64,000 nt of DNA. Source: Desulfocapsa sp. GTDB taxonomy: Bacteria; Desulfobacterota; Desulfobulbia; Desulfobulbales; Desulfocapsaceae. Below, piece after piece: positions 34,122 through 48,990 of this stretch (positions are counted from its first letter, which is position 1; each line of letters starts with the position of its first letter). Under the pieces are notes generated by a model. The model saw only the letters and a program-made list of their open reading frames with translations. It had not been told where the DNA came from and ran no database searches. The stretch covers positions 1 to 64,000 of the forward strand of contig JAQYVF010000002.1 of the NCBI GenBank assembly GCA_030145625.1, in the 5' to 3' direction. Both the position numbers and the translations under genes were made by a program.

Positions 34122-34649
34122 CTAGTTAAGAGGGGGCTGCTGATTAACAAAAATCAGCTTCTCAGTATCAAAACCAAGTTCTTTGGCTTGCTGGACAAAC
34201 TGATTCACAAGCTCTGCATTGACAGTGGCTGTTCTTGACAAAAGCCAGAGATAGGAGGTGTCAGGTCCTGCCACAAAGGCATGGGAGTATTCTTTTTTGT
34301 CCAGCTCAAAGATAACATAAGAACCGTAAAAAGGACCAAAAAATGAGACCTTCAGGTGGCCTTGCTCAGCTCCTTTAATAAAGTAGGCTTTTCCTTCAGC
34401 CTCCTTCCATTTATTCTGGGTGGTTGAGAAGCCTTTATTGACAACCCTCACCCCACCATCATCACGCAGTGAATATTCAGCACTTACCCTCTCCAGTCCG
34501 CGTTCAAAGGAGTGATCAAGCCTGGCAATTTCATACCATTTCCCCAAGTACCTGTCTAAATCAAAGTCCGAAACAGGATCCACACCTTCGGGTATGCTCA
34601 GGCAACCTTTTAAAAAGAATGACAGAATAAAAATGAAAAATATACGCAT
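34122..34649 (-). CDS. blc: Outer-membrane lipocalin lipoprotein (Blc type)
   Basis: A 175-residue lipoprotein with lipobox FFLKGC (Cys near residue 16). The lipocalin signature DFDLDRYLGKWYEIARLDHSFERG follows, then the beta-barrel strands (VNKGFSTTQNKWKEAEGKAYF, LKVSFFGPFYGSYVIFELD, YLWLLSRT). Blc-type lipocalins bind fatty acids or lysophospholipids at the outer membrane and act in membrane maintenance under stress. The start directly abuts the photolyase stop, so it is the last gene of the photolyase operon. It also lies near the lipid-modification operon at 39-44 kb. Confidence 0.9.
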   Translation of the reverse strand: MRIFFIFILSFFLKGCLSIPEGVDPVSDFDLDRYLGKWYEIARLDHSFERGLERVSAEYSLRDDGGVRVVNKGFSTTQNKWKEAEGKAYFIKGAEQGHLKVSFFGPFYGSYVIFELDKKEYSHAFVAGPDTSYLWLLSRTATVNAELVNQFVQQAKELGFDTEKLIFVNQQPPLN

Positions 34650-36023
34650 CTAGATTGCTCCCAGCTTCTGTACTCGTCTTAAATAGCCGGCAATATCAAA
34701 TTTTCGTTTGCATCCATTGCTGTTCATATAACGAATTTTGCCAAATATAGGTCGCTCCGCCCAGGCCCTGTCATGCACTCCACCGATACTCCAGGCAACA
34801 CCTGCATAACCGTTGGGGTCACGCCCATCAAGGGAATATTTATCGTTGAGATAAATGGCGTTGAACATGGCTTCTTCCGGAGAGGCTGACCATTCGAGAA
34901 TTTTTTTTGCCCAGTACATACGCAGATAACCATGCAGCTTACCCTGATGTACTAAATCCTGCTGACAAGCATTCCAAAGCGCATCTTCTGTGCCTGCATT
35001 CTCAAGGATTTGAAGATTCGCCAAATAAGGACGGACATCTCCCTGATGAATATCCAAGGATTTTCTTGCCCAGTCTGGAAAGGCAGTGCAACGGTCATAG
35101 TCGTCGGTGTAATAACAGAAGTTGTCGGAAAGTTCCCTGCGGATGATTAATTCTTCCAGATATACCTCTTTGTTTTCCTGCTCTACCGTGTAATTTTCTA
35201 CATCCCAGGCTGCACGCTGGGGAGCAAGCTGGCCAAAATGGAAGTATGGTGAGAGATTTGACTGACCATCCACACAAGGATTATTGCGCTTTGTGGAATA
35301 TGAATGAAGGCCATGGATCAGGAAGTCGGCTAAAAGATCATTTCCTGCTCTTTCTCCGGGATGAATCCAATGAACTTCCCCAACTGATTGATCTTTGATC
35401 TTTTTCAGGAGTGTCTTGGCGGAAAACGCTTGAGTCATGGATTGCGTCGAGAGATGTGGATGCCTTTGAAGTGGCGGAAAGTCAGTGAGAAATCGGGGCA
35501 GCAGCCTGTGTATCTTCTTCCTTATGGTATAGGCCGCATATTCGTGCTTATCGGAGGCTAGCCAGCAGGGAACTATGTTATGGGCGTCCACCTCAAAAAC
35601 CGGCATGCTGCAGTGCTGCAGGATATTCTTTTTCCACTGCTTCTTTATACGCAGCGGGTCAAAATCGGTTACCAGCAGGGACGGATCCATTTTTTTTAGA
35701 AAAGGAGGCAATGCGATGTCGGGCATCCCAGGCAAAAGGCGGAAGCCAATGGCAGCCTTTTCCAGAGTGCATTGCACTTCTTCCAGGCCGCGCAGCAGAA
35801 AAGCAAAATGGCGAAGATTGGCAGCCGGGTAGTCCAGGTCGATGCAGAAGACAACAACCACATCCTTATGCAGAGCAAGTGCTCTCTCTTGAGCGTAAAG
35901 AAGTGCCCAATTGTCATGTGCCCTCTGATCCCTGCTCATCCAGTAGACCACCGGCCCATCTCCCAATTGGCCTTTCTGCAGCAGACGGCTACGTTCCTGA
36001 TCAACGGTGCGTTGCCAATTCAT
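34650..36023 (-). CDS. phr: Class II CPD photolyase
   Basis: A 457-residue flavoprotein that repairs cyclobutane pyrimidine dimers with light. The N terminus is the class II type (NWQRTVDQERSRLL; GPVVYWMSRDQRAHDNWALLYAQ). The C-terminal FAD-binding half carries NPCVDGQSNLSPYFHFGQLAPQRAAWDVE, LHGYLRMYWAKKILEWS and the class II ending DGRDPNGYAGVAWSIGG. The start at 36023 is preferred over 36110: it gives the family N terminus and does not overlap the upstream gene, though the ribosome-binding site (ACAGGGG) is only fair. A photolyase in a sulfate-reducer-like genome fits exposure to light in shallow or surface sediments. Confidence 0.92.
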   Translation of the reverse strand: MNWQRTVDQERSRLLQKGQLGDGPVVYWMSRDQRAHDNWALLYAQERALALHKDVVVVFCIDLDYPAANLRHFAFLLRGLEEVQCTLEKAAIGFRLLPGMPDIALPPFLKKMDPSLLVTDFDPLRIKKQWKKNILQHCSMPVFEVDAHNIVPCWLASDKHEYAAYTIRKKIHRLLPRFLTDFPPLQRHPHLSTQSMTQAFSAKTLLKKIKDQSVGEVHWIHPGERAGNDLLADFLIHGLHSYSTKRNNPCVDGQSNLSPYFHFGQLAPQRAAWDVENYTVEQENKEVYLEELIIRRELSDNFCYYTDDYDRCTAFPDWARKSLDIHQGDVRPYLANLQILENAGTEDALWNACQQDLVHQGKLHGYLRMYWAKKILEWSASPEEAMFNAIYLNDKYSLDGRDPNGYAGVAWSIGGVHDRAWAERPIFGKIRYMNSNGCKRKFDIAGYLRRVQKLGAI

Positions 36024-36073
36024 CCCCTGTCCCCCATTTTTTCTAAAATCACTATAAACAAGCAGACTAGTCG

Positions 36074-36484
36074 TTATAGATGGTTTATACGGCAAGTTCC
36101 GGAATCGCATTTGTCTTTTACCGGGAAGAGTTTTTTCCGGTATCTTGCAAATAGAACATAAGCCAGTTGAGCCACTATATGAACACCGGGAAGCATCAAG
36201 AACATGGCGAAAAAGGCAAAAAATCTTCCCGGCAGGGCCTGCCAGATAGCTGGAAAAGCATTTACACCGAGAAAAAACTGCCCCTGTTGATCCAGGACAT
36301 GCATCTGAGCCATGAAATCGTCCATGGTCTTTCCATATCGTTCCGGTTCAAAACCCTCTTCGCTGATATCCACGAGCAAGAGTTGTCCGTGAAGGTCTTT
36401 ACTTTTATAGTGTCTACTTTCACTGGCACAGACACTGCACGAACCATCAAAAAAAATCATTATTGGGGGTTGGACTTTTTTCAT
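36074..36484 (-). CDS. DCC-family thiol-disulfide oxidoreductase (DUF393)
   Basis: A 136-residue protein of the DCC/DUF393 family. The signature FFDGSCSVCASE contains a CxxC redox pair near residues 16-19, and a hydrophobic helix (RFFAFFAMFLMLPGVHIVAQL) lies near the C terminus. A second cysteine pair (CDSGTC) ends the protein. Family members commonly sit beside photolyases and DUF1365/Cfa-type genes in bacteria. Redox substrate unknown. It is the fourth gene of the minus-strand run. Confidence 0.85.
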   Translation of the reverse strand: MKKVQPPIMIFFDGSCSVCASESRHYKSKDLHGQLLLVDISEEGFEPERYGKTMDDFMAQMHVLDQQGQFFLGVNAFPAIWQALPGRFFAFFAMFLMLPGVHIVAQLAYVLFARYRKKLFPVKDKCDSGTCRINHL

Positions 36485-36511
36485 ACGAATTCTCTCAAAA
36501 ACCTACCTGTT

Positions 36512-36844
36512 CTATCGTTTAGCCAATGGCGGCCGCCGTTCCGGCACATGCTCATGAGCCATTTTGTCTTCGTTCCAGTCGCTGCTGACATACAGACCGC
36601 AATAACAGCTGCCATATTCCTTCACATCAGGTTCACGGTAAACACATGGACAAATAATATCCCTGTCCTTTTCCTTCTTTCCTGAGGCAAGACGGCAGGG
36701 GCAGGACATATAGCCGTAGCGTTCTTTATTAGTAAGCAGTCCCTGAAGCAGTGAGTCCACCTGTTCTTCGTTCGTATTGAAAAAATAACCGAGGGCTTCC
36801 TGTATGTTTTGCAGGGTTTTACGCAGACTCGTTCTATCCCTCAT
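36512..36844 (-). CDS. Ferredoxin-thioredoxin reductase catalytic-subunit-like [4Fe-4S] protein
   Basis: A 110-residue protein with the FTR catalytic chain pattern: CPC (48, 50), CPC (65, 67) and CYC (80, 82). In FTR, four of these cysteines ligate the [4Fe-4S] cluster and two form the active disulfide. It transfers electrons from ferredoxin to thioredoxin- or glutaredoxin-type proteins. Here its start overlaps the end of the glutaredoxin-like gene (36841-37131), its probable partner. Residues 1-45 are helical with FNTNEEQVDSLLQGLL, as in other FTR chains. The usual FTR variable subunit is absent, as is common in anaerobes. Confidence 0.9.
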   Translation of the reverse strand: MRDRTSLRKTLQNIQEALGYFFNTNEEQVDSLLQGLLTNKERYGYMSCPCRLASGKKEKDRDIICPCVYREPDVKEYGSCYCGLYVSSDWNEDKMAHEHVPERRPPLAKR

Positions 36845-37131
36845 GGGAGGCCCAGCTCCTTTTTAATCCGTTCTTCCTGATAGCCAACGATGGCGACATT
36901 ATCGATGATAGTAATGGGAAAACTCTCTTCCGGGTTGAATTTTCTCAGTTCCTCCATCTGCTCATCCCGTTCACTCTCCGGGAGTAGATCAAGATCGGTG
37001 AAGCTATACTGAAAACCGGCTTCCTTAAGCTGTCTCTTCAGAGTGCTGCAAAAAAAACAGGTGCTCAGGGTAATTAAGCGAATCTCTGGCTGCTGTTCTT
37101 TTGGTGTTGCATTTTTCTCTGCCTGGGTCAT
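36841..37131 (-). CDS. Glutaredoxin-like redox protein
   Basis: 96 residues with a thioredoxin fold. The active site TLSTCFFCSTLKR has Cys25 and Cys28. The cis-Pro segment ESFPITIID and GYQEERIKKELGLP end the protein. It overlaps the FTR-like gene by four bases and the DUF523-DUF1722 gene by four bases, so all three are translationally coupled. With FTR it forms a ferredoxin-driven dithiol pathway. Confidence 0.9.
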   Translation of the reverse strand: MTQAEKNATPKEQQPEIRLITLSTCFFCSTLKRQLKEAGFQYSFTDLDLLPESERDEQMEELRKFNPEESFPITIIDNVAIVGYQEERIKKELGLP

Positions 37132-38102
37132 TGCACGTCCCTCCCGTTACCGCTGTCTGAAAGGTTTGAGAGTTCCGGTGGAAAAGGCCGGAGCAGAACT
37201 TGACTGAGCAGATATTCTTGTTTAAAACGGATTGCCTGGACTTCAAGAAGTCGGGTGGCAGCCTGCAAGGGGATCCTTTCGTCGCGATACTCTTCAAAGG
37301 TGTTGATAATATATTGTTTTTCCTCGCTGGACATCTTTTTTGCAATCCAGCCATAAGCATGATAAAGAGTGTTGACCATGGCCTGTCGGCGAAAGGGCCT
37401 GGCCAGAATTTGGGCCATTTCTGCTTCGTAGAGTTGAAAAACCTCAGCAGCAGGCAAATGTTCATGGTTGGCTGTTATTTTACCACAGAGACGAAAACGA
37501 CTCTGGTTATAGGCAAGAAAGAGCAGCTTGTGGCTGGCATGGAAATTCACCAACTCACCCATTTTTAAATTAGTTGCAATGCTGCGAAAACGTGTCCAGA
37601 CATAGAGCTTGATGAGAAAATGTTCCCGAAGAACGATGTTCGTCAAACGCTGTTCATCGTCTACTGCTTTCTGTCCCAGCCTTTCCAGTACCAGTGTGCC
37701 AAAGACACCGCTTTCCCAGCGCAGAAACTGCGGTTTTTCCATGCCCTTGTATACCTTGGCATCGTACAAACCGCAGGAGGGTGACCTGGATTTCAGGATA
37801 GCCCCGTCGCAATCAGTAAGCTGTTCCACCTGCCCCATGGCGGCTTCATGCAGGGCGGTGGTGACTGTGCGTGACTCCGCCGGCTGCCACACCTCAACTC
37901 TATTGTTTTCCAAACAGAGACGAATCGGGGGACGAGGCACCCCCAGCCCCGCTTCCATTTCCGGACAGATATCAATGAAATCAACGTGGTCCCGCAACAG
38001 CTTCACGACCATGGAGGAAAGCTGTGCCCCATCATAACGGCAGGGTGCAAAACCGAGACAGCGGCTGACAAGGACTCTGGGGCGGGGGAAAGAAGGGCTC
38101 AT
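37128..38102 (-). CDS. DUF523-DUF1722 (YbbK-YbgA) fusion protein
   Basis: A 324-residue two-domain protein. The N-terminal DUF523 (residues about 5-155) has conserved cysteines in VSRCLGFAPCRYDG, FIDICPEMEAGLGVPRPP and LKSRSPSCGLYDAKVYKG, possibly a metal or cluster site. The C-terminal DUF1722 (about 190-310) has KLLFLAYNQSRFRLCGKI and QAMVNTLYHAYGWIAKKM. In E. coli ybgA is next to the photolyase gene phrB; the same partnership recurs here with class II phr. Molecular function is not established. Start could be 38111 or 38102; both ATGs are in frame. Confidence 0.88.
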   Translation of the reverse strand: MSPSFPRPRVLVSRCLGFAPCRYDGAQLSSMVVKLLRDHVDFIDICPEMEAGLGVPRPPIRLCLENNRVEVWQPAESRTVTTALHEAAMGQVEQLTDCDGAILKSRSPSCGLYDAKVYKGMEKPQFLRWESGVFGTLVLERLGQKAVDDEQRLTNIVLREHFLIKLYVWTRFRSIATNLKMGELVNFHASHKLLFLAYNQSRFRLCGKITANHEHLPAAEVFQLYEAEMAQILARPFRRQAMVNTLYHAYGWIAKKMSSEEKQYIINTFEEYRDERIPLQAATRLLEVQAIRFKQEYLLSQVLLRPFPPELSNLSDSGNGRDVQ

Positions 38103-38169
38103 CGAATACACTCCATCAAAATAATTTTCAGTTTGAGACCAAAAGGGTTTCTAAAAACAACAGACTCCA

Positions 38170-38645: not shown

Positions 38646-38846
38646 TTAAAGAAATTCCTTCATGTTACCAGCGCTCGTGCCAACGATTGTACTAACATCC
38701 ATACAGCTGGCTTTTTCCTCTTCGCTCAGCTCTAGTTTTGCTTTGATATTACCTTTCAGGGCCTCTACGTTACAGGCGTATTCCTTACCGTCTTTGTCAC
38801 GTACCCATACCAGATTTCCAAACCCACCTTGTAATTTATCAGCCAT
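38646..38846 (-). CDS. Small acidic protein, paralogue A (frameshifted C terminus)
   Basis: A 66-residue cytosolic protein from ATG 38846 with a GGAGA ribosome-binding site. It is nearly identical to paralogue B over the first 52 residues: GGFGNLVWVRDKDGKEYAC, then a Lys/Glu-rich helix and a second Cys in KASCMDVSTIVGT. Where B and C end in GTERW, copy A lost one base (GCTCGTGCC versus GCTCAGTACC on the plus strand) and runs on as SAGNMKEFL. No known family. It has its own promoter and a conserved upstream element. Confidence 0.8.
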   Translation of the reverse strand: MADKLQGGFGNLVWVRDKDGKEYACNVEALKGNIKAKLELSEEEKASCMDVSTIVGTSAGNMKEFL

Positions 38847-38897
38847 AATGTTCTCCTAAAATAGGGTTACTGGTTGTATTGCATTTCCTGCTCTTGC

Positions 38898-38926
38898 TTT
38901 ATACAATAGCCCCTTGCGAGAGACAA
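38898..38926 (-). promoter_or_regulatory. Promoter of small-protein gene A
   Basis: On the minus strand TTGTCT (38926-38921), 17-bp spacer, TATAAA (38903-38898). Start of transcription is predicted near 38891, 45 nt before the ATG. Confidence 0.6.
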
Positions 38927-38927
38927 T

Positions 38928-38972
38928 CAATGAGGGTTAAAAGATAGTTTAATGACAGTCTAAACTATCTTT
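38928..38972. promoter_or_regulatory. Conserved upstream element with 12-bp inverted repeat (copy A)
   Basis: AAAGATAGTTTA (38940-38951) and TAAACTATCTTT (38961-38972) are perfect 12-bp arms with 9-bp spacing. The centre lies about 65 bp upstream of the predicted transcription start, the usual place for a class I activator of the NarL/LuxR type. The same element occurs at 48079-48120. Confidence 0.6.
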
Positions 38973-39138: not shown

Positions 39139-39669
39139 TCATGATTGATTTTCCTTCAGCTTTTTTTCAATAAAACCTGAGAGAATGAAAAAGAAGGGCG
39201 TGAGCCCGGCCCAGACCAGGGCGGTGATTAATATATTGCGGTAAAGGGGTTGATTGAACTCCATGGCTCCCAGGGCGCCACCTCCATAATAGGCAAGAGC
39301 ACCGCCTATGCCCCCTAAAACAGCAGCCAGTAGGTGACGACTGCGGAGCCAGCGGATTGATACGTTGAAAAGGGTGGAGAAGTTGAGCCACATCAAGATC
39401 AGCCAAGGTGGGCTGTAGGGTGTCGGGAAAAGAAAAGTTTTGGGAGTGTATATTCCCAAAACGGTGAGCAGGGTATCGGTGGCAAAACCGATTATCATGA
39501 TTGTAAGGCCCAGGGTGACTTCTCTTACCACATTGCCATGGAGCTTGAGATGGACGGCAAAAAGCATTAGCACCATCAGCGGTCCGAGCCAGAACATATC
39601 CTTGGCGGCACCGAGTATACTGGTAAACCAGCCGACTTGAAAGCTTAACAGGTTGAAGGCAATCAGCAT
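39139..39669 (-). CDS. DUF2878 integral membrane protein
   Basis: 176 residues, about five helices (LIAFNLLSFQVGWFTSILGA; PLMVLMLFAVHL; LTIMIIGFATDTLLTVLGIY; PWLILMWLNFSTLFNVSIRWL). The DUF2878 family is regularly encoded with Cfa-like methyltransferases, DUF1365 and flavin amine oxidases. It is the last gene of the six-gene lipid operon, 3 bp after the Cfa-like gene. Function unknown; a membrane partner of lipid modification is likely. Confidence 0.85.
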   Translation of the reverse strand: MLIAFNLLSFQVGWFTSILGAAKDMFWLGPLMVLMLFAVHLKLHGNVVREVTLGLTIMIIGFATDTLLTVLGIYTPKTFLFPTPYSPPWLILMWLNFSTLFNVSIRWLRSRHLLAAVLGGIGGALAYYGGGALGAMEFNQPLYRNILITALVWAGLTPFFFILSGFIEKKLKENQS

Positions 39670-39672
39670 TTT

Positions 39673-40959
39673 CTAGAGACCCGGTAGAATGGGTTGCGGG
39701 CGGTAACCGGGCTTGTTGAAAATCATCTGGACATTACCCAGGTAGCGTTCGGCAAAACCTGCTTCACAATAGCAGAGATAAAATTCCCACATCTTAATAA
39801 AACTCTCGCTAAAGCCCTGCTGCCTGACATCTTCAATTTTTTCAAAAAAATTCTGGCGCCAGATTCGTAAGGTGGTAGCGTAATGGGCGGTAATGTCCTC
39901 AAGGTGAAAGAGTTTCATATCAGAGGCATTGGTGGAGGCCTCCATCATCGCTGTGATTGATGGAATACAGCAGCCTGGAAAGATATATCGGCTGATAAAA
40001 TCAGCTGATTTCTTATGATTTTCATAGACCTGGTCTTGAATGGTAATGGACTGGATCAGCATGGAGCCGTTTGCCTTTAAAAGATCACTGCAGCATTTAA
40101 AAAAAGTTTTGTAAAAATGGTGGCCCACGGCCTCAATCATCTCAATAGAGACAATCTTGTCAAATTTACCGGCAAGCTCACGATAGTCTTGAAAGAGCAG
40201 GTCGATTTGGCCTGAAAGGCCGGCTTCTTTGATGCGACGTTCGGTATGATCATGCTGTTCTTTTGAGATCGTGGTGGTGGTCACCCGGCAGCCATATTTT
40301 TCAGCGGCATAGATGGCAAAACCTCCCCAACCGGTACCGATTTCCAGTAAATGATCAGCCTCTGAAAGTTCGAGTTTTTTGCAGATTCGTTCGAATTTTT
40401 CTAATGAGGCCTCGTGGAGTGTGGTCTGCTGATCCTTAAAAATAGCGCAGGAATAAGCCAGGGTATCGTCAAGGAAGAGACGATAAAAATTATTCCCCAA
40501 ATCATAATGGGCGCTGATATTTTTCTTGCTGCCGTTCTTGGTATTTTTGCGGCGGAGATGAAAGAGTTTGTATATGGGAGCAGTGATCTTCGCCAAGCCA
40601 CTATCTAAGGTTTCCACTACATCTTGGTTCAGGACGATGATTCGAATGAGGTCGGTAAGATGGTTGCAGTTCCACTCTTTACGCATATAAGACTCGCCGG
40701 CGCCGATACTGCCACCGAAAACAAGGGAGCTGTAAAACATCGGGTCTTTGACTCTGATTTTGGCGTACATACCATTTTTCTTGGTGGTACCCAGTTCAAA
40801 AATATCGTTGCCATCCTCTATCTCAATATGACCATCGTGGATAGCGGCCAGCCGTTTTAAAACGATATTGCGGCATAGATTAAGCGTAAAAAGCTTGTGG
40901 CCTATAGAATAAGAGGGGAAGGCCAGGGCTTTTTCCTTGGAGATCATTTTTTTAGCCAT
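39673..40959 (-). CDS. Cyclopropane-fatty-acyl-phospholipid synthase-family SAM methyltransferase
   Basis: A 428-residue cytosolic enzyme that methylates the double bond of phospholipid acyl chains using SAM. The SAM-binding motif I is DHLLEIGTGWGGFAIYAAEK (about residue 200). KNISAHYDLGNNFYRLFLD precedes it, and VSIEMIEAVGHHFYKTFF carries the characteristic Glu/His. The end YLCYCEAGFAERYLGNVQMIF is typical of the family. The genes around it (flavin amine oxidase, DUF1365) suggest it could make methylated or furan fatty acid precursors (UfaM-like) rather than a plain cyclopropane ring. Which one cannot be told from sequence alone. Confidence 0.9.
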   Translation of the reverse strand: MAKKMISKEKALAFPSYSIGHKLFTLNLCRNIVLKRLAAIHDGHIEIEDGNDIFELGTTKKNGMYAKIRVKDPMFYSSLVFGGSIGAGESYMRKEWNCNHLTDLIRIIVLNQDVVETLDSGLAKITAPIYKLFHLRRKNTKNGSKKNISAHYDLGNNFYRLFLDDTLAYSCAIFKDQQTTLHEASLEKFERICKKLELSEADHLLEIGTGWGGFAIYAAEKYGCRVTTTTISKEQHDHTERRIKEAGLSGQIDLLFQDYRELAGKFDKIVSIEMIEAVGHHFYKTFFKCCSDLLKANGSMLIQSITIQDQVYENHKKSADFISRYIFPGCCIPSITAMMEASTNASDMKLFHLEDITAHYATTLRIWRQNFFEKIEDVRQQGFSESFIKMWEFYLCYCEAGFAERYLGNVQMIFNKPGYRPQPILPGL

Positions 40960-40966
40960 GGGAACA

Positions 40967-41737
40967 CTATTCCTCCGTTTGTTCTCTTTTAGTGGGATGA
41001 GTATAAAAAGGGCAGCCTTTTTGCCAGAGACGCAGAGCCTGCCAATAGATACCTGCCGTGACCTTGAAAGTCATCAGGGGGTGGCAGGTTAAAACGGCTG
41101 CCAGGTTTTTAGAATTTATATCACGGCGGTTAAGAATAAGTTCCGCTTCAAAAAGCTTTTCTTCGTCGTGAAAGTCCATCATCAATACTTGAAGTTCCTT
41201 ACCTGGTTCGCCGAATTTCCAGGTGTACGAAATATCCATGTCCATAAAGGGTGAGACATGAAAATCTTTGGCAAAGGAGTAGGTTCGAGTTGTGCCTTGG
41301 CGTTCTTCCATTTTTTTGTCAAGTACGTAGCAAAAAACCTCCCCCCAAGGAGTATTATGGATTTCCACTACAATGGTTTCGAGTTCTTTACCGCTTTGGT
41401 CATAACAATAAAATAAGGTCGCCGGGTTAAAGCAGTATCCCAAATATCTAAGGTGGGTCAGCATTCGGATCGGCCCTTGGCAGGGGGAGCCTGTTTCTTT
41501 TTCAACCAGGTTGCGTACACTCTGGTCAAGGGAGATGGTCGGATCGCCAAAATGATCTTTGCGGCGCAGGTAGGCCAAGTTAAAATGTTTGGTAGACCAA
41601 AACCACCGGCCTTGGAAAACCTCGTCTAACTCTTCAAGATCTATATACATCATAAACAGTTTGAAGTTAAAGCCGTTGGCCACAGGCTGGTAGCGGGCAT
41701 GTATGGCCTGGCCTTGATAAATGCAACTGTTCATCAC
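40967..41737 (-). CDS. DUF1365 protein
   Basis: 256 residues of the DUF1365 family (start SCIYQGQAIHARYQPVANGF; MLTHLRYLGYCFNPATLFYCYD; VEIHNTPWGEVFCYVLD; FHVSPFMDMDISYTW). Members are nearly always encoded between a flavin amine oxidase and a Cfa-like gene, as here. The start overlaps the amine-oxidase stop by 4 bp. No catalytic motif is known; a role in fatty-acid modification is inferred from context. Confidence 0.9.
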   Translation of the reverse strand: MMNSCIYQGQAIHARYQPVANGFNFKLFMMYIDLEELDEVFQGRWFWSTKHFNLAYLRRKDHFGDPTISLDQSVRNLVEKETGSPCQGPIRMLTHLRYLGYCFNPATLFYCYDQSGKELETIVVEIHNTPWGEVFCYVLDKKMEERQGTTRTYSFAKDFHVSPFMDMDISYTWKFGEPGKELQVLMMDFHDEEKLFEAELILNRRDINSKNLAAVLTCHPLMTFKVTAGIYWQALRLWQKGCPFYTHPTKREQTEE

Positions 41738-42975
41738 ATTTCCTTGCCGAAATATTTGCAGACTTCCAAACCGCTTTTAACGCCGTCCTCGTGGAAACCG
41801 TTCCCCCAATAAGCTCCGCAAAAATGGGTGTGATGGACACCGCTGATCTCGCTATGGCGCTTTTGGGCCGCCGGCACCTGTGGTGTGTAGAGCGGATGGT
41901 CATACCTGTAGGTGCCGATGATTTTGGCAGAGTCTATCATCTGCCGCTGGTTGAGGGATACTGTAAATTCTTCCGGGGCCCTTATGCCCTGGAGAATGTT
42001 CATGTCGTAGCTGAGTGTCGCCGTTTCTTGAGACTCTTTAGGGATGGCATAATTCCAGCTGGCCCACACAGATTCTTTGGACGGCAATATTGCAGTATCG
42101 GTGTGAAGAATAGCATCATTTGGCTGATAACCGATGGTGCCCAGAATCTCCTTTTCAGGTTCAGAAGGATCTGCCAGTAGGGCCAGGGCCTGGTCGCTGT
42201 GAACGGCAAGGATGACATGGTCAAAGGTTTCGGTGCCTTTTTTGTTGCTGACCACTACCTTCTCATCCTGCCTTTTGATCGATGTTACCGGGCAGTTCAG
42301 CTGAATATAATTTTTAAAGGGTTCAGTCAGCTTAGGAATATAGGCCTGGGAGCCTCCTTTAATCACCTGCCACTGAAATTGATTTTTGATATTAAGAAAA
42401 CCATGATTTTTAAAGAAACGGACAAAGGTGCCCAGAGGAAAATTCTTTGACTTGTCGAGACCGGCAGACCACAGCGAAGCAGTGATGGGCAGGACAAAGA
42501 GCTCTATAAACCGGGTACTGTAGCCTTTATTTTTTAGGTAAGGGACAAGGGGTTCATTGTCATATTTATGGTCGAGAAGGCTGTCAAATTCTCTGCGGAA
42601 TCGAAAGAGATCCCAGATCATCCGGTGATGGGCTGGAGAGAAGATGTTTTTACGCTGGGCAAAGAGTGTGTTTAAGGAGTGGGCGTTATACTCTACTCCG
42701 GTGTGGTGACATTTGACACTGAAGGTCATCTCGGTGGGCTGGTATTCAACACCAAGGCTGTTCATTATTTTGCAGAAATTGGGGTATGTCGTCTCATTAA
42801 AGACAATAAAGCCGGTATCAATCATATAGCTGCCGGATTCGGTCTGCACCGGGATGGTGTGGGTGTGGCCACCGATATAGTCATTGGCCTCAAAAATCTG
42901 AATATCGAAATCTTTATGAAGCAGATGAGCGGTGGTGAGGCCGGATATACCCGTGCCGATGATTGCTATCTTCAT
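41734..42975 (-). CDS. FAD-dependent amine oxidase-like oxidoreductase (UfaD-like)
   Basis: A 413-residue flavoprotein. It starts MKIAIIGTGISGLTTAHLLH (dinucleotide fold), with YMIDTGFIVFNETTYPNF and the C-terminal THFCGAYWGNGFHEDGVKSG FAD segment. It belongs to the NAD(P)-binding amine-oxidase group tied to DUF1365 and Cfa-like genes; in Rhodobacter a member of this type is the desaturase UfaD of furan fatty acid synthesis. Assigning that exact activity is inference. Ten bases separate it from the DUF2177 gene. Confidence 0.88.
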   Translation of the reverse strand: MKIAIIGTGISGLTTAHLLHKDFDIQIFEANDYIGGHTHTIPVQTESGSYMIDTGFIVFNETTYPNFCKIMNSLGVEYQPTEMTFSVKCHHTGVEYNAHSLNTLFAQRKNIFSPAHHRMIWDLFRFRREFDSLLDHKYDNEPLVPYLKNKGYSTRFIELFVLPITASLWSAGLDKSKNFPLGTFVRFFKNHGFLNIKNQFQWQVIKGGSQAYIPKLTEPFKNYIQLNCPVTSIKRQDEKVVVSNKKGTETFDHVILAVHSDQALALLADPSEPEKEILGTIGYQPNDAILHTDTAILPSKESVWASWNYAIPKESQETATLSYDMNILQGIRAPEEFTVSLNQRQMIDSAKIIGTYRYDHPLYTPQVPAAQKRHSEISGVHHTHFCGAYWGNGFHEDGVKSGLEVCKYFGKEM

Positions 42976-42985
42976 TTCACATCCC

Positions 42986-43402
42986 TTACTTTAAAAAAAC
43001 ATCAAGTTGTTTACCGGCCACAGTGGCTACGCTATTAATAAAAGCTCCCCAGGCCATATCCACCATGGACATTTTTATCGACCAGTTTTGCAGGAGTGAG
43101 TGGTTGGTCATATCGTAGACCCCGTATAATATGAGGCCATAGAGCATCCCCTTAATCAAGGCTGGAAAGAAGAAGTTCTGGTCTGGGATGCCGGGCAGAA
43201 CAAAGAGGACAATACCAAGGGGAATAAGAAGATAGACAAGAATCGCGGCCCAAATCACTGGCGCAAAATTATTATTTAAAACCCTGGCCATGGGACCCAG
43301 TTCATTAAGATAAAAACGGCTCATGATCTTTCCGAGCCAGAGATAATCAATAATGAAAAAGATCGGAATAAGACAAAGGTAGACTTTCAGTTCGTGCATC
43401 AT
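42986..43402 (-). CDS. DUF2177 membrane protein
   Basis: 138 residues with four helices (YLCLIPIFFIIDYLWLG; PVIWAAILVYLLIPLGIVLFV; ALIKGMLYGLILYGVYDMTNHSL; VDMAWGAFINSVAT). The start IDYLWLGKIMSRFY and the LYGVYDMTN motif are typical of DUF2177. It overlaps the end of the DUF1295 gene (ATGA). Function unknown; often in Cfa/DUF1365 clusters. Confidence 0.88.
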   Translation of the reverse strand: MMHELKVYLCLIPIFFIIDYLWLGKIMSRFYLNELGPMARVLNNNFAPVIWAAILVYLLIPLGIVLFVLPGIPDQNFFFPALIKGMLYGLILYGVYDMTNHSLLQNWSIKMSMVDMAWGAFINSVATVAGKQLDVFLK

Positions 43403-44181
43403 AATTGCTTCTCCTTACGGGGGGGAAGAGGGATAAAGACACTGGTTGTTTTCATATATTCTTGGAATTCAGTCTTGGTACGGAGCCTTTTTTCGGCAAG
43501 GGGGATGCCGGACACCTTGAGGATCAAAAAGGTTATTGTGGCCGGGCCGATCAGGCTCAGCCATACGTTACCCACCGACAGGGCCATGATGTAAACACCC
43601 CACCAGAGCAGAACCTCGCCAAAATAATTGGGATGTCTGCTGTAACGCCAGAGGCCAGACTGCATTATTTTCCCTTTATTGCCGGGGTCCTTTGTGAATT
43701 GATCAAGCTGGTAATCCCCCACCATTTCAAAGGTGAAGCCGATGAGCCAGATTAGAATACCAAAATAATCCAAAGCATTGAGAGGAGGATTGGCGGTTGT
43801 GATGACTTGCAGAACAGGAATTACCACAATCAGAATCAAAAAACCCTGGAGCATAAATACCTGCAGGAAGCTGCCAAGGAGAAGATGTTTTCCCCATTGC
43901 TCACGCCACTCTTGATAGCGCCGGTCTTCTGATTTGCCACGGTTCCGAAGAGCAATGCGGATGGCCAACCGCCCACCCCAGATGAAAACAAGAGCGCTTA
44001 CCAGTAGAGCTCGACCCGAAACCGGCCAGGAGTAAACCAAAGCACAGGTGGTAGCACTTATAAAGCCAAGACCCCAGACGATATCGGCAATATCATTTCG
44101 CTTACGCCACAAAGCCACAGCAAACCAGGTGCTCATAAAAAAAAACATCAAAGCAAGTTCAAGTGTCAGCAGTCGAAGCAT
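43399..44181 (-). CDS. DUF1295 family membrane protein (steroid 5-alpha-reductase-like)
   Basis: 260 residues, six or seven helices. The motif GLWRYSRHPNYFGEVLLWWGVYIMAL is the isoprenylcysteine methyltransferase/steroid-reductase signature of DUF1295. The family's reductase activity uses NADPH on a lipid double bond, but this subgroup is uncharacterised. It is the first gene of the six-gene lipid operon and has a GAGGGAG ribosome-binding site 8 bp before the ATG. Confidence 0.88.
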   Translation of the reverse strand: MLRLLTLELALMFFFMSTWFAVALWRKRNDIADIVWGLGFISATTCALVYSWPVSGRALLVSALVFIWGGRLAIRIALRNRGKSEDRRYQEWREQWGKHLLLGSFLQVFMLQGFLILIVVIPVLQVITTANPPLNALDYFGILIWLIGFTFEMVGDYQLDQFTKDPGNKGKIMQSGLWRYSRHPNYFGEVLLWWGVYIMALSVGNVWLSLIGPATITFLILKVSGIPLAEKRLRTKTEFQEYMKTTSVFIPLPPRKEKQL

Positions 44182-44402: not shown

Positions 44403-44430
44403 ACCGCACTCTTTTTTTGAAGAGTGCGGC
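44403..44430 (-). terminator. Hairpin terminator after small-protein gene B
   Basis: CCGCACTCTT and AAGAGTGCGG (10-bp arms, loop TTTTTG) lie 7-35 nt past the stop of gene B. The tail on the minus strand is only moderately T-rich. Confidence 0.6.
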
Positions 44431-44437
44431 CTCATTT

Positions 44438-44620
44438 CTACCAGCGCTCAGTACCAACGATTGTACTGACATCCATACAGCTGGCTTTTTCCTCTTCGCT
44501 CAGCTCTTCTTTTGTTTTGATATTACCTTTCAGGGCCTCAACGTTACAGGCGTATTCTTTACCGTCTTTGTCACTTATCCATACCAGATTTCCTAATCCA
44601 CTTTGTGATTTGTCAGCCAT
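44438..44620 (-). CDS. Small acidic protein, paralogue B
   Basis: A 60-residue protein from ATG 44620 with an AAGGAGAAC ribosome-binding site; an upstream in-frame start at 44704 would read through the promoter and is rejected. Contents: GLGNLVWISDKDGKEYAC, a charged helix (LKGNIKTKEELSEEEKASC) and the ending MDVSTIVGTERW. Two cysteines (in EYAC and ASC) and one Trp pair are shared by all three paralogues. No family was recognised. It sits downstream of the CrtI-like gene and upstream of the lipid operon, same strand. Confidence 0.85.
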   Translation of the reverse strand: MADKSQSGLGNLVWISDKDGKEYACNVEALKGNIKTKEELSEEEKASCMDVSTIVGTERW

Positions 44621-44852
44621 GATGTTCTCCTTAAATAGGGTTAATAGTTCTACTGCATTTCCAGCTCTTGCCTTATACAATAGACCCTTGTGAGAGATAA
44701 TCAATGGGGGCCAGAGGAGTTTCTAACAATAGTTACTACTTTCATTAGCAGCACAACCTTCCTCTTAGAGCCGCCGGGCAATCCGATCCTCAGCCAAAAC
44801 CGCTCCAACCGTTACTGCCGCCATGGATTGCCCCGGAAAGGTGAAATCACCA
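44439..44852. repeat. Direct repeat copy B
   Basis: About 414 bp matching 38664-39079. Here the CrtI-like 3' end (44765-44852) is intact and part of the full-length gene. The segment 44704-44755 does not match copy A, and copy B lacks the GATAG-N17-CTATC element. Confidence 0.85.
44672..44700 (-). promoter_or_regulatory. Promoter of small-protein gene B
   Basis: On the minus strand TTATCT (44700-44695), 17-bp spacer, TATAAG (44677-44672), at the same place as the promoter of gene A. Confidence 0.5.
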
Positions 44853-46222
44853 ACCAGGGTGCAATTTTTTATCCCGAAGTGATTCCGGCCTGGCGGGACT
44901 ATACTGTTCTGGCTATAGCCCCCGACCAGACCAAGATGTCGTCCGGTGTAACGGGCATAGGTAAGCGGAGTCCCTGCCATATAAAATTCGACATTGTCTT
45001 GGAATCCGGGAACATGGATCTCCAACAGGGCGAGTATTTTATCTGTGTACGCCAGTTTCATGGCTGTGTAGGTATCATTTCCCTTTTCCCAGGCCTCCCA
45101 CCAGGGTTGTACCGCCGTATGGGTGGAGATGCTGAGAGCAACTTTCCCTTCTGCTGCCCGTGTCATATCATGGGGATGGGAGGCGGACAAAAAAAGAGAC
45201 GCTCCCTCGGCCAGTTTTCCGGCAGCTGTATCCACCAGCTGTAAATGTGAGGAGTGCAGTTGTTCCATGATCTCCTTATCGGCAGCAATATGGAGAATGA
45301 ATGCTCCCCATCGGGCACGGCTTTCTTTTTGCCAGGATGTGGGGATCTCTTTGCTGAGGAGAGTGGCCAGCCCGGCACTGGATCCGTTAAACAGGACCTC
45401 CCTGGCTTTATATCTTCCCTTGCTGGAGACCACCTCAGTGATCTGGTCTTTATCCACGGTAAAAGAAAGTGCCTTTTCACCACAGATCACCTGGCCACCC
45501 AGGCTACTGATTTTTTGGCCCAGTATATCTGCCACCGTTCCTATACCGCCAACAATGCTGCAGGGTGACTTGCGTGGCAGGTCAAGGGCCATGGCGGCAT
45601 AAAGTGCATTACAGGAAGATGAGGTGGTCTGGGCGGAAATCAACAGCTGGGCATCGATGAATCTGCAAAAGGCAGCATCCCTGTGCAGGTTGTGTTTCTG
45701 CAGCCAGCGTTCGGCAGACATGGTGCACAGTTGGAGAATTTTTGAGGTACACACTTTGGCCGGAAGCACCCGTAAAAGTGCAGCTATTTGCTGCGATCTG
45801 CTGCGCTGGTATAGGGAGAGAAGTTTCTCTGACACCGCCCAAAGCCGATCGGCAATATCTGCCTGCTCCCTCCAGAAGGATTCAGAGGCAGGAAAATGCT
45901 GAAGAAGGGAGTGACGATTTTTATCAAGCAGAAGCGTGTTTTTCCCCTCACGATACTCCCAGGCAACATCCAATGGCTGCGTTGGCCAGCAAACATTCAA
46001 CTTTTCAGCAAGCCACTGCATGGGACCGTTAGTTTGAAAACCAGATCCTATGGTTGCTCCAGTATCGAAGCGAAAGCCCCGATGGGAGAATGTTGCAGCA
46101 CAACCTCCCACACTCTGCTGCTGTTCCAGCACAAGAACCTCCATACCCTTAGCCGCCAGCAACGCAGCCGAGACAAGGCCGCCAATTCCAGCACCAATGA
46201 TAATGGTATCGTAGGAGCGCAT
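44765..46222 (-). CDS. CrtI/CrtISO-like FAD-dependent oxidoreductase (carotenoid or polyene lipid desaturase/isomerase family)
   Basis: A 485-residue flavoprotein. The N-terminal FAD motif is TIIIGAGIGGLVSAALLA followed by VLVLEQQQSVGGCAATFSHRG; the C-terminal FAD segment is CTLVGDFTFPGQSMAAVTVGAVLAEDR. The phytoene desaturase/retinol saturase-like fold is clear; no carotenoid synthase gene accompanies it, so the substrate (carotenoid, retinoid or fatty acid) is uncertain. The 3' 88 bp are duplicated at 38994-39079. Ribosome-binding site weak. A dead extradiol-dioxygenase gene lies just upstream. Confidence 0.82.
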   Translation of the reverse strand: MRSYDTIIIGAGIGGLVSAALLAAKGMEVLVLEQQQSVGGCAATFSHRGFRFDTGATIGSGFQTNGPMQWLAEKLNVCWPTQPLDVAWEYREGKNTLLLDKNRHSLLQHFPASESFWREQADIADRLWAVSEKLLSLYQRSRSQQIAALLRVLPAKVCTSKILQLCTMSAERWLQKHNLHRDAAFCRFIDAQLLISAQTTSSSCNALYAAMALDLPRKSPCSIVGGIGTVADILGQKISSLGGQVICGEKALSFTVDKDQITEVVSSKGRYKAREVLFNGSSAGLATLLSKEIPTSWQKESRARWGAFILHIAADKEIMEQLHSSHLQLVDTAAGKLAEGASLFLSASHPHDMTRAAEGKVALSISTHTAVQPWWEAWEKGNDTYTAMKLAYTDKILALLEIHVPGFQDNVEFYMAGTPLTYARYTGRHLGLVGGYSQNSIVPPGRNHFGIKNCTLVGDFTFPGQSMAAVTVGAVLAEDRIARRL

Positions 46223-46279: not shown

Positions 46280-46832
46280 TCACCAAAGGTAAGCGCTGAC
46301 CTTTTTTCCCATCACCTGCCAGGAAAAACTCCGCCTGGCGATTTTCCCGGCAAATCCGTAACAGACATGTAAGGGCAGGAGATGCTCCTCTTGTATGGCC
46401 TCTGCTGCACGCTCCGGCTCGGTAAATTTCCCGTTTGTGCACCTGTCCATCAACCACTGTTCAAAGGATTCATTCATTGACTGTATGGCGGTAGTGGACA
46501 GGGAAAAGAAGGCCTTCATATTGTCAAATGAAAAACCTTAACCAAGTACAAGGATCTTTTCATCCTTTAATCCGGCAATGCTCCTGCCAAGCACTATATG
46601 TTCAGCCGGATTGAAGCCGTTTATGAGTGGCACCACTGAGGACTGTAAATTTCTCAGTTTCCCAGTGGGGCCTGACCACAATGATAGCGGAAGGTCTTTC
46701 CAGAATGGTCGCAATACTTTTAAGCCCACAAACCATCTCCCTGTGGCATGCATCTCCCAACAGAGGAAGGGGACCACCCCCATGGGAGATATAAAGAGCA
46801 TAAGGGAGAGATATTTTAGAATTACTGTGCAT
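46280..46832 (-). pseudogene. Decayed DODA/LigB-type extradiol dioxygenase gene
   Basis: The N-terminal piece from ATG 46832 carries ALYISHGGGPLPLLGDACHR and AIIVVRPHWETEKFTVLSGATH of the 4,5-DOPA-dioxygenase-like family. The frame then shifts and about 100 residues of the family are missing. The C-terminal part resumes with NGFNPAEHIVLGRSIAGL, a TAA where Ser is usual, GFSFDNMKAFFSL and EEHLLPLHVCYGFAGK. Together they give an internal deletion, a frameshift and a nonsense mutation. It cannot make an enzyme. Confidence 0.75.
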
Positions 46833-46847
46833 ACTCTGCTCCTCGTA

Positions 46848-47243
46848 TCACTCAATGATCACTTCATTTCCGCCAATGAGACTAAGGGCCCTGTCAACCC
46901 TGAAACGAACAAGAAACTTTTCTCCCTGCAGCCTCTCATCCTCGGGACTGAGATGACGTCTGGTGAGTGAGCTAATGAGCTCCTGATCGCTGCTTTCATC
47001 GATCTTACTCAGAAAGAGACGAACACCACTGTAGCCCTGTCCTTCCTCAAGGAAAAGATAGTTCGCATGCTTGTTTTCCTGCAGATTCTTGTGGGTAAGG
47101 CGGTCACGCATAATAAATGCGAGCTCATCTCTCCCCTGTACATGTGGCCTTGAATAGATTGCGGTATCCACCACTCCGTTTTTATCACTGGTGGCCATAA
47201 CTCCAATTCCCTTCATCTTTGAAAAATAGGTTTCAATATTCAT
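46848..47243 (-). CDS. Pyridoxamine 5'-phosphate oxidase-family flavin/haem-binding protein
   Basis: 131 residues, split-barrel fold: ETYFSKMKGIGVMATSDKNGVVDTAIYSRPHV, then ELAFIMRDRLTHKNLQENKHANYLFLEEG. That is the PNPOx-like pattern for FMN- or F420-type binding. The start at 47243 (MNIETYF) fits the family N terminus; the longer frame from 47333 is not conserved. Substrate unknown; FMN-dependent reductases of this group often deal with stress. Confidence 0.82.
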   Translation of the reverse strand: MNIETYFSKMKGIGVMATSDKNGVVDTAIYSRPHVQGRDELAFIMRDRLTHKNLQENKHANYLFLEEGQGYSGVRLFLSKIDESSDQELISSLTRRHLSPEDERLQGEKFLVRFRVDRALSLIGGNEVIIE

Positions 47244-47333
47244 TTTATCCGTTTTCCTTCTCTTTATTGTAATTTCCCAGGTTGTTCTCGCAGGCAGAAT
47301 GAACAATTTCCAGGCCTGAAATGGTAGCGGCAA

Positions 47334-47504
47334 TCACCGCACCCATAACCACTCCTCTTCCTGTCCAGTTGTTTCCATAGCAACATTCTGGCTTTCCAGT
47401 TCCTGGTTTACCAAAACCAGTGTAGCTGCCGGGTCAGCTGCTATCTTGTCTTCGTAATAGCCAACAATATCAGCAAGAGTCTCATCATATTTCTTATCAA
47501 TCAA
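47334..47504 (-). CDS. Possible small ORF (56 aa, TTG start)
   Basis: A minus-strand frame reads IDKKYDETLADIVGYYEDKI, then AADPAATLVLVNQELESQN and ends EEEWLWVR. Its residue composition looks coding-like. It has a TTG start, only a distant GGAG, and starts 10 bp after the 73-residue gene. An overlapping frame (containing YTGFGKPGTGK and CCYGNNWTGRGVVMGAVIAA) also looks Gly-rich and protein-like, so this interval may be the remnant of a broken gene. Confidence 0.25.
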   Translation of the reverse strand: MIDKKYDETLADIVGYYEDKIAADPAATLVLVNQELESQNVAMETTGQEEEWLWVR

Positions 47505-47514
47505 CGACTTCTGC

Positions 47515-47736
47515 TCACTCCAGCCCTTTCACCGATATGCCTTTCTCCTGGAGCTCCCTGCATACCTGCTCTACCTGTGATCTATTGCAATCCGTTATCT
47601 CATACACGTCGCTTACGCCGTCAATAAAGGAAAAAATCACCCGGCCGTCTTCACCTAAGGTGATCGAGCGGATGTAGTTTGCATTCAACCAGGGTTCCAG
47701 ACTTTCTGTAAAGTGATTCAAGCTGCATTGTTTCAT
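47515..47736 (-). CDS. Small hypothetical protein (73 aa)
   Basis: 73 residues from ATG 47736 with a GGGAGA ribosome-binding site. Residues 20-50 look like a beta-sheet (YIRSITLGEDGRVIFSFIDG) with a C-terminal helix and cysteines in TDCNRS and QVCREL. No family recognised. Its upstream neighbour is the third paralogue of the small acidic protein. Confidence 0.6.
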   Translation of the reverse strand: MKQCSLNHFTESLEPWLNANYIRSITLGEDGRVIFSFIDGVSDVYEITDCNRSQVEQVCRELQEKGISVKGLE

Positions 47737-47755: not shown

Positions 47756-47795
47756 CAGATGACACTCTTTCCAAATCTGGACAGAGTGTCATCTG
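47756..47795 (-). terminator. Hairpin after small-protein gene C
   Basis: Thirteen-base arms CAGATGACACTCT (47756-47768) and AGAGTGTCATCTG (47783-47795), directly after the stop of gene C. No T run, so it may act as a terminator or as an RNA-stabilising hairpin. Confidence 0.55.
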
Positions 47796-47806: not shown

Positions 47807-47989
47807 TTACCAGCGTTCGGTACCTACAAATGTACTGACATCCATGCAGCCGGCCTTTTCTTCCGCAGAAAGTTCTTCTTTGGTTTTAATGTTTCCCTTG
47901 AGAGCATCAGCCGTACAGGCGTATTCCCTGCCGTCTTTATCTCGTACCCAAACCATATTTCCAAATCCACCTTGTATATTATTTTTCAT
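47807..47989 (-). CDS. Small acidic protein, paralogue C
   Basis: 60 residues from ATG 47989 with GGAG six bases upstream; a start at 48001 lacks a ribosome-binding site. It shares with A and B the pattern GGFGNMVWVRDKDGREYAC, LKGNIKTKEELS, KAGCMDVSTFVGTERW; identity is about 75-80% by eye. Divergently arranged with the PAS-LuxR regulator gene at 48136, with a shared element between them. Probably the parent locus of the family, because its regulator is next to it. Confidence 0.85.
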   Translation of the reverse strand: MKNNIQGGFGNMVWVRDKDGREYACTADALKGNIKTKEELSAEEKAGCMDVSTFVGTERW

Positions 47990-48078
47990 AACAGTCTCCA
48001 TTTATTATTGTTCTTGTTGCTTGCTATAGAAGGTTTATTTAACCCTGTATCTACAGTAAGCTGTGATACGATGGATAG

Positions 48079-48120
48079 CAATACGGGTTAAAGGATAGAT
48101 TAATAGTAGCTAAAACTATC
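48079..48120. promoter_or_regulatory. Conserved element between small gene C and luxR-type gene
   Basis: From CAATACGGGTTAAAGGATAG to CTAAAACTATC; matches the copy-A element with GATAG (48094-48098) and CTATC (48116-48120) at the same 17-bp spacing. It lies 105 bp upstream of gene C and 16 bp upstream of the regulator ATG, so it could control both. Confidence 0.6.
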
Positions 48121-48135
48121 AACAAGGAGATCCTG

Positions 48136-48990
48136 ATGGATGGCCGCATGTATGAGATCATTGTTGACTCGCTGTCAGCGCATGTTGCGGTGCTGGATGA
48201 CAAAGGCGTGATTGTCAAGACCAACCGGGCCTGGCAGGAGTATGCAGAAAAAAATGGATTGGTAGGGCACGCTGATACCCTTGGAGTCAATTACCTGGAT
48301 ATCTGCGAAGCTGCCACTGACTCTGGAGATCCGGAAGGAGAGCTGGTTACCATGGGCATCCAAAAGGTACTGGCGGGTGAACTCCTCGAGTTTGTGATCC
48401 AATACCCCTGCCATTCGCCAAGCCGACGCCAGTGGTTCAACCTTCGGGTACTCCCCTATCTCTCTCAAACAGAAAACTGGGTTATGATGGTGCATGAAGA
48501 CGTCACGCCCCTTTTTCTTGCCCAGGAAGAGCTGCAACAGAAGGAAGAGGAACTAAGGCAGAAGAGTGAGGAGCTGGAGGAGATGAATGTAGCCCTCAAG
48601 GTGCTGCTTGAACACCGGCAACGTGGACTGGCAGAACTGGAGCAGCAAATGACAGTCAACATTCACGAACTGGTACTCCCCTATACGGAGAAACTGAAAA
48701 GCAGCCTGAAAACCCCGCGGAATCGAACCCTGATCGATATTGTGGAGAGTAATCTCAACGATATCATCGCTCCCTTTCTCAACCGGCTTTCCTCCCTCAA
48801 CCTTCTCCTAACCCCCCAGGAGGTCGAGGTAGCTGCGCTGATCCGGACCGGAAAGAGCAGCCAGGAGATTGCGGATGTATTAGGGGTATCAGTGAGTACC
48901 ATCAGTTTTCATCGAAAGAATCTACGCCGCAAGCTTGGTCTGCACGACCGGACAATGAACCTGCGTACCTATTTGCTCTCTTTGAAATAA
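48136..48990 (+). CDS. PAS-domain LuxR-type transcriptional regulator
   Basis: A 284-residue regulator. The N-terminal PAS domain (residues about 10-120) has DSLSAHVAVLDDKGVIVKTNRAW and LRVLPYLSQTENWVMMVHEDVT. A coiled-coil linker rich in Glu/Gln (about 125-180) follows, and the C-terminal LuxR/GerE helix-turn-helix is LTPQEVEVAALIRTGKSSQEI and ISFHRKNLRRKLGL. There is no receiver domain, so the signal is sensed by PAS itself or by a bound cofactor. The ATG is preceded by AAGGAGATCC. It is divergent from paralogue C and likely binds the element between them. Confidence 0.88.
   Translation: MDGRMYEIIVDSLSAHVAVLDDKGVIVKTNRAWQEYAEKNGLVGHADTLGVNYLDICEAATDSGDPEGELVTMGIQKVLAGELLEFVIQYPCHSPSRRQWFNLRVLPYLSQTENWVMMVHEDVTPLFLAQEELQQKEEELRQKSEELEEMNVALKVLLEHRQRGLAELEQQMTVNIHELVLPYTEKLKSSLKTPRNRTLIDIVESNLNDIIAPFLNRLSSLNLLLTPQEVEVAALIRTGKSSQEIADVLGVSVSTISFHRKNLRRKLGLHDRTMNLRTYLLSLK

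Follow-up and report, generated by a model that had tools for sequence, protein, structure and literature searches.

The order Desulfobulbales harbors a family of small Cys2 proteins, an operator-promoter module that precedes their genes as well as genes of a defence-type set, and a regulator combining PAS and LuxR domains (PAS-LuxR) with which the module co-occurs across genomes. Judged from sequence, PAS-LuxR is probably a one-component sensor-activator of a photo-oxidative-type defence regulon that includes the small protein. The analysis started from the window, i.e., the whole 64,000-nucleotide stretch of a Desulfocapsa sp. genome (contig JAQYVF010000002.1), in which an earlier note had proposed a regulator-driven regulon of three small-protein paralogues.

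Three paralogous small proteins head consecutive predicted operons

The window encodes three paralogous small proteins, copies A, B and C, all on the minus strand, which head three consecutive predicted operons of a 14-kb island. They are real members of one family, as the earlier note had recognized, with the correction that A is frameshifted near its end, so that it is 66 aa long and has lost the conserved GTERW tail. In total, five family copies are present in the genome, the 2 extra ones on another contig. The features of the island and the divergent regulator gene are as follows.

48136..48990, plus strand: PAS-LuxR one-component regulator, 284 aa, divergent to copy C, with GerE and PAS_4 domains
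47807..47989, minus strand: small protein copy C, 60 aa, Cys2, ends GTERW; first gene of operon 1
47757..47795, minus strand: stem-loop directly past the C stop codon, before orf73 (z −6.4 versus mononucleotide shuffles)
47515..47736, minus strand: orf73, uncharacterised conserved 73-aa protein; operon 1
47334..47504, minus strand: orf56; operon 1
46848..47333, minus strand: PNPOx-like protein, assigned from a weak match below the Pfam cut-off plus relatives; operon 1
46280..46855, minus strand: LigB-like extradiol dioxygenase, split into two reading frames; operon 1
44765..46222, minus strand: CrtI/amine-oxidase-like flavoprotein; operon 1
44438..44620, minus strand: small protein copy B, 60 aa, ends GTERW; first gene of operon 2
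44404..44429, minus strand: stem-loop after B; a terminator-like match was reported on the plus strand, the stem being symmetrical
39139..44181, minus strand: operon 2, with DUF1295, DUF2177, FAD amine oxidase, DUF1365, CFA synthase (CMAS) and DUF2878
38646..38846, minus strand: small protein copy A, 66 aa, frameshifted near the C-terminus; first gene of operon 3
34122..38111, minus strand: operon 3, with 2-thiouracil desulfurase/DUF1722 (DUF523/1722), glutaredoxin-like protein, ferredoxin-thioredoxin reductase beta (FTR), DCC1-like thiol-disulfide oxidoreductase, photolyase/cryptochrome and lipocalin

Copy C has an additional in-frame ATG at 48001. The LigB-like gene is intact in a relative, where it encodes 270 aa (L132:8631-9443).

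Seven residues do not vary among the 30 family members aligned: G8, W14, G20, C25, C48, G56 and W60. The earlier description of the protein as Cys2 and acidic stands for the two Cys residues, whereas the acidic character is weak, copy C having 10 D/E versus 9 K/R. A dN/dS ratio was obtained for 10 gene pairs, at 0.05 to 0.27 in nine and 0.49 in the tenth; an eleventh pair was saturated, and the start codons were picked by script or by hand. These low ratios, together with the invariant residues, argue that the small-protein genes are translated and constrained. That the protein falls in no recognized family was upheld in searches of Pfam, NCBIfam, PHROGs and PDB sequences: no match rose above any cut-off in Pfam or NCBIfam, a further check of the 30 members gave a match for one (E 0.032), the PHROGs search (2 proteins) had a best E of 0.04, and the single match among PDB sequences had E 0.91, so that no solved relative was found. 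A Tudor/SH3 identity was considered and rejected: 7 of the 30 members match Pfam Tudor_2, but weakly and below the cut-off, E 0.01 being the best value. AF2 gave a poor model of the protein (pLDDT 61, pTM 0.41).

A stem-loop follows the small gene on its 3' side in 35 of 52 cases (z < −2, mononucleotide shuffles); in tandem arrays it mostly stands after the last member and is mostly absent after inner members. This pattern fits the small gene having a short message of its own. The stem-loop at 47757-47795 is strong and lacks a U-run; a U-run follows the stem in several relatives (such as L013, L026 and L034). Most likely, the small protein acts as a thiol-active defence effector, made in abundance, and not as an enzyme.

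An operator-promoter module precedes the small-protein genes

The module consists of TAATGATAGT-N4-ACTATCATTA, a weaker CTAYC half-site, a TTG (−35) and, after approximately 17 bp, TAWWGT (−10). The earlier note had named in advance the absence of its element upstream of homologues in related genomes as evidence against it; this check, when run, did not refute the proposal, the module being judged present at 30 of 54 distinct upstream regions scored, which represent part of all homologues. These 30 sites, kept by eye, were used to train a profile (R1). Among the remaining 24 regions, 15 precede the second or third gene of a tandem array, and the other 9 precede further genes that lack the module. 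The layout common to the 30 sites is RATAGTTTTTACTAYCATTA, with the CTAYC half-site 11 bp further, then an ACC-rich stretch, TTG and TAWWGT. The best-conserved symmetry over the 30 sites is GATAG-N6-CTATC, which extends into the longer palindrome with its 4-bp spacer. AG, T and TTG are invariant in 30/30 training sites, an invariance that is partly circular because the sites were picked by eye partly for that layout. The TTG lies 39 bp from the first base in all 30, and the −35/−10 spacing is approximately 17 bp (16 in some). The module starts 100 to 136 bp before the chosen start codon in 27 of the 30 sites and 93, 165 and 206 bp before it in the others. With the transcription start placed from the −35/−10 pair, the palindrome is centered approximately 67 bp upstream of it, close to the 65 bp given previously. 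The same core and TATTG recur in 23 further or overlapping sites found by the model, mostly before other genes.

The window contains three such modules.

48048..48122, minus strand: operator-promoter of C, operator at 48094-48120, promoter sigma70-like (R1 E 1.1e-14, training row)
44669..44747, minus strand: degenerate operator-promoter of B (R1 E 1.1e-9, training row)
38895..38972, minus strand: operator-promoter of A (R1 E 6.2e-14, training row)

The perfect inverted repeat with 12-bp arms reported at A was found at 38940-38951 / 38961-38972, and the C element indeed lies in the divergent region next to the PAS-LuxR gene, the far end of the module being 14 bp from the regulator start codon. 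GATAG-N17-CTATC, by which the element had first been described, occurs exactly at two places in the window, at A and C only, and with one mismatch at 6 sites versus 1.27 expected (0/100 shuffles reach 6). It pairs the first half-site with the weaker third, a pairing that is perfect in A. The accompanying CAAT..GGGTTAAA, taken as its reverse complement, matches the stretch leading into the −35 TTG. A chance match was rejected on the shuffle counts, the recurrence in relatives and the occurrence before unrelated genes; an RNA leader of the small gene was also considered and rejected, the element sitting upstream of a conserved −35/−10 pair. A general promoter scan of the window gave 17 hits versus 14.5 ± 3.7 in shuffles and did not report the proposed −35/−10 pairs.

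The module co-occurs with PAS-LuxR

Among 146 genomes sampled from the order, 31 have a PAS-LuxR orthologue (E ≤ 1e-50) and 33 have the module (E ≤ 1e-3), 29 of which also have PAS-LuxR. The module is thus found in 29/31 LuxR genomes versus 4/115 others (Fisher 5e-24, a value that overstates independence because the genomes are phylogenetically related, with the genome lists compiled by hand and PAS-LuxR alone scored among DNA-binding families). The association holds both among genomes with the small protein (26/28 with LuxR versus 1/10 without) and among those lacking it (3/3 versus 3/105). In each of the genera g1, g2, g5 and g6, LuxR and module occur together in some of the listed genomes and are both absent from the rest. 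At the cut-offs used, G007 and G119 have LuxR but no module. Conversely, four genomes have the module without LuxR: G005, with a 73-codon frame matching PAS-LuxR beside the module site; G086, which is 63% complete and whose contig ends near the site; G115, where the site is marginal (E 3.7e-4); and G003, where nothing recognized stands alongside the site (E 2.7e-5).

Because R1 was trained on promoters of small genes, a second profile was built from the 16 LuxR-divergent training sites alone. In 446 kb of loci selected for R1 matches, which tests the prediction of other sites rather than their number, it reported 24 sites at E ≤ 0.1, 2 of them training sites, and recovered 22 of 33 non-training sites. 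No site was found at E ≤ 0.1 in 1.02 Mb of control and distant loci, the control positions having been picked by us on the same contigs rather than drawn at random. The recovered sites include that of copy A, which is not among the 16, and the DUF3833 sites of G049, G061, G100 and G134; the 11 of 33 missed include that of B, three sites before photolyase (G108, G111, G137) and two before DUF3833 (G111, G145).

The module heads a set of defence-type genes

The order genomes contain 60 module sites, for 56 of which the gene context was read, with genes named by BLAST to window or locus proteins (E up to 1e-4). The module directly heads a small-protein gene at 35 of the 56 sites, most of these being training rows. 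At 17 sites, no small-protein gene comes first and another member of the defence-type set is the first gene recognized; 1 site has LuxR only and 3 precede nothing recognized. The targets other than the small protein are photolyase, a cluster running from DUF3833 to CFA synthase, operons of PNPOx or orf73, and methyltransferase genes. Six of the 17 sites head DUF3833 clusters, complete or partial (G049, G061, G100, G111, G134, G145), which contain chalcone isomerase-like, SnoaL, SDR, FAD oxidase, DUF1365 and CFA synthase genes. In G108 and G137, one unnamed open frame separates the module from the photolyase gene, and in G041, two modules in the same direction precede most of the C and A gene sets. 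Orf73 is a second uncharacterised small protein behind the module and is sometimes the first named gene (G005, G035:C155). The idea of a small-protein regulon holds insofar as the module tracks PAS-LuxR, but it is too narrow, since the module also heads these other operons and precedes photolyase. The stress or redox response suggested at the outset can, on gene content, be specified more closely as one of photo-oxidative type.

Divergent orientation to PAS-LuxR was seen at 25 of the 56 sites. With starts set by hand, 22 of 24 divergent pairs have the LuxR start at most 35 bp from the module, an arrangement suggestive of autoregulation.

In the mechanism we propose, a PAS-LuxR dimer would bind TAATGATAGT-N4-ACTATCATTA and probably also the following half-sites, at 11-bp steps towards the −35 box; centered near −67, it would recruit sigma70 RNA polymerase (class I activation). 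Since this site also borders the PAS-LuxR start codon on the divergent side, the regulator would very likely limit its own synthesis too. The putative targets are, on the one hand, the genes of the 60-residue Cys2 protein, often followed by a stem-loop that would yield a separate short message and, on the other hand, operons for DNA photorepair, membrane-lipid modification (the CFA/DUF1365/FAD-oxidase cluster), PNPOx and LigB-like oxidoreductases, and thiol reduction (glutaredoxin-like, FTR, DCC1-like). The signal may be light-derived oxidants; this photo-oxidative reading is based on the resemblance of the gene content to ChrR- and MerR-type regulons elsewhere.

Sensor domain and signal

The predicted product of 48136..48990 matches GerE (E 6e-15, 55 bits, cut-off 23.5) and PAS_4 (E 2e-5, 25.2 bits, cut-off 23.1), and with both domains in one chain it is assigned to LuxR/GerE regulators bearing an N-terminal PAS domain. 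Its predicted structure is fair (pLDDT 81), and Foldseek places the PAS domain near LOV, NifL, FixL, Aer2 and VqmA, with heme, FAD and LOV PAS domains alike. The LOV adduct cysteine, which lies in the motif GxNCRFLQ, is absent: Tyr53 occupies the position, placed by eye, in 25 of 25 aligned sequences (consensus GxNYLxIC), which makes flavin-adduct light sensing unlikely. In the same alignment, H16, C92, H93 and H120 are invariant.

A reading to which we give appreciable weight, if less than an even chance, retains the regulator and operator and takes the signal to be oxygen, a redox cofactor or another small ligand, with light incidental. The lineage is known as anaerobic sulfur bacteria, and the conserved His and Cys residues, the missing adduct cysteine, the equal proximity of heme, FAD and LOV domains and the thiol genes of the island (FTR, glutaredoxin-like, DCC1-like) all favor such a signal. 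It is countered by the photolyase and CFA-synthase cluster among the module targets: in Vibrio cholerae, blue light induces the CFA synthase VC1122 as well as the photolyase/cryptochrome operons (PMC5241685). As ChrR systems sense an oxidant and not a photon, the oxygen or redox alternative shades into the photo-oxidative reading that we prefer.

Distribution and role of the small protein

A profile search detected the small protein in 38 of the 146 order genomes, with partial matches in a few. In a sample of 345 genomes from the phylum, 25 (two of them belonging to the order) have the protein or a divergent form, which retains the core VWVKDKAGNEFVC...EEEL..C without the GTERW tail. Beyond the order, a set gene or a relative of PAS-LuxR stands no more than 5 kb away at 7 of 20 loci of divergent members, compared with 1 of 40 control loci (Fisher 0.0013), the controls being positions that we picked on the same contigs, not at random, and the one positive having a PAS-LuxR-like match. 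Without PAS-LuxR matches, the comparison is 6/20 versus 0/40. An operator search beside the divergent genes outside the order gave no convincing site. The divergent member of L220 adjoins a 42%-identical PAS-LuxR, and that of L217 adjoins PNPOx and an activator with PAS_4, sigma54 AAA+ and Fis domains (L217:9247-10824, minus strand), the PAS_4 domain of which is related to that of PAS-LuxR. At L211, L213 and L214, also outside the order, divergent small genes lie beside a gene that by eye looks of the PEP/pyruvate dikinase type and a PNPOx-like gene, with Pfam assignment made for L211. Among order genomes without LuxR, lipid-cluster genes lie within a few kb of the small gene at 3 of 5 loci (G103, G032, G124) and not near it in G058 and G133. 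In both G000 and G093, a gene for an iron-containing alcohol dehydrogenase (Pfam Fe-ADH) is close to a small-protein paralogue at which the searches detected no module (L151:7033-7212 and L134:9034-9213).

The small protein might instead be a feedback modulator (anti-activator) of PAS-LuxR, an unlikely role in our estimation. The divergent pairing and apparent co-regulation of the two genes, the small size of the protein and its conserved C-terminal tail would suit it, whereas 10 of the 38 genomes carry the protein without LuxR at the cut-off (some as partial matches), indicating that it does not need this regulator. Furthermore, many copies lie in operons away from the LuxR gene, and one divergent member adjoins the sigma54-type activator instead. 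The role of defence effector remains our preferred reading.

It is similarly improbable that another regulator binds the module, with PAS-LuxR a mere passenger. Such a reading can draw on the restriction of the co-occurrence screen to PAS-LuxR and on the predicted nature of PAS-LuxR binding, but the module follows LuxR in both presence and absence and recurs far from the LuxR gene in LuxR genomes, and a palindrome of approximately 24 bp suits a LuxR-type dimer. Finally, copies A and B share a duplicated stretch in which part of the CrtI-like gene, from its 3' end, survives beside A (38990-39080 versus 44760-44850), implying that they arose by segmental duplication, but the notion that the A/C element is a mere remnant of this event can practically be dismissed, being contradicted by its conservation in distant genera and before unrelated genes.

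Comparison with known systems

In the literature searched, with subscription journals mostly outside its scope, we recognized no description of this regulon, regulator or small protein. The nearest counterparts are the sigmaE-ChrR regulon, the blue-light response of V. cholerae, LOV-LuxR regulators and actinobacterial PAS-LuxR regulators. We take the furan fatty acid genes of the sigmaE-ChrR core to be the FAD oxidase/DUF1365/CFA set, and VC1118-VC1125 of V. cholerae to be the same gene cluster as here; the photolyase gene phrA is a sigmaE-ChrR target. The target set identified here corresponds to that of sigmaE-ChrR in combining lipid-modifying enzymes with photolyase.

The core sigmaE-ChrR regulon is reported to comprise approximately 8 genes conserved across species, including furan fatty acid genes (PMC6852236). 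The sigmaE-ChrR system (ECF11; Rhodobacter and others) as presented there resembles ours in having a dedicated regulator and membrane-lipid modifying enzymes (PMC6852236). By contrast, the system described here appears to rely on a one-component PAS-LuxR with sites upstream of sigma70-like promoters, and an additional small-protein gene heads its operons. The promoter pair, TTG-17-TAWWGT, looks sigma70-like, whereas a sigmaE promoter is a feature of sigmaE-ChrR. ChrR (TIGR02451) was detected in 0 of the 146 order genomes at E ≤ 1e-10, a search in which the control matched 1 of 14 named genomes, Caulobacter.

The MerR/ChrR blue-light response of V. cholerae shares CFA synthase and photolyase/cryptochrome targets with the regulon proposed here; the genes responsive to blue light that were picked for validation in that study include VC1118 (PMC5241685). 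That response uses regulator families other than PAS-LuxR. EL222 and other LOV-LuxR proteins likewise join a PAS-fold sensor to a GerE helix-turn-helix, and LOV ranks high in the fold search, but with Tyr in place of the adduct cysteine, EL222 photochemistry is not expected. The actinobacterial PteF and CfaR, likened by domain pair alone, also combine PAS with a LuxR helix-turn-helix; they reportedly govern secondary metabolism, unlike the role proposed here.

Implications

Regulator, operator and target set are mutually consistent and point to a conserved regulon. As a stress response it would be of a familiar kind, set apart by its unexpected regulator and by a small protein not described before. 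Rather tentatively, and with considerable doubt, one may picture an undescribed Desulfobacterota defence module in which a PAS sensor takes over from ChrR or LitR the control of photo-oxidative defence. The sensor would be carried by LuxR in this order and, in one or more other lineages, by a sigma54 activator; the hallmark of the module would be a new class of small Cys2 effector, which the glutaredoxin-like/FTR pair under the same control would maintain in its reduced state. If the proposed regulon is true, a lineage of anaerobic sulfur bacteria keeps a dedicated regulon against light and oxygen damage, under a regulator type without an earlier link to such a regulon in the literature searched. 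An unnamed, strongly conserved small-protein family would thereby gain a context, an operator and testable predictions, and with the operator model the regulon can be counted in whichever genome is examined.
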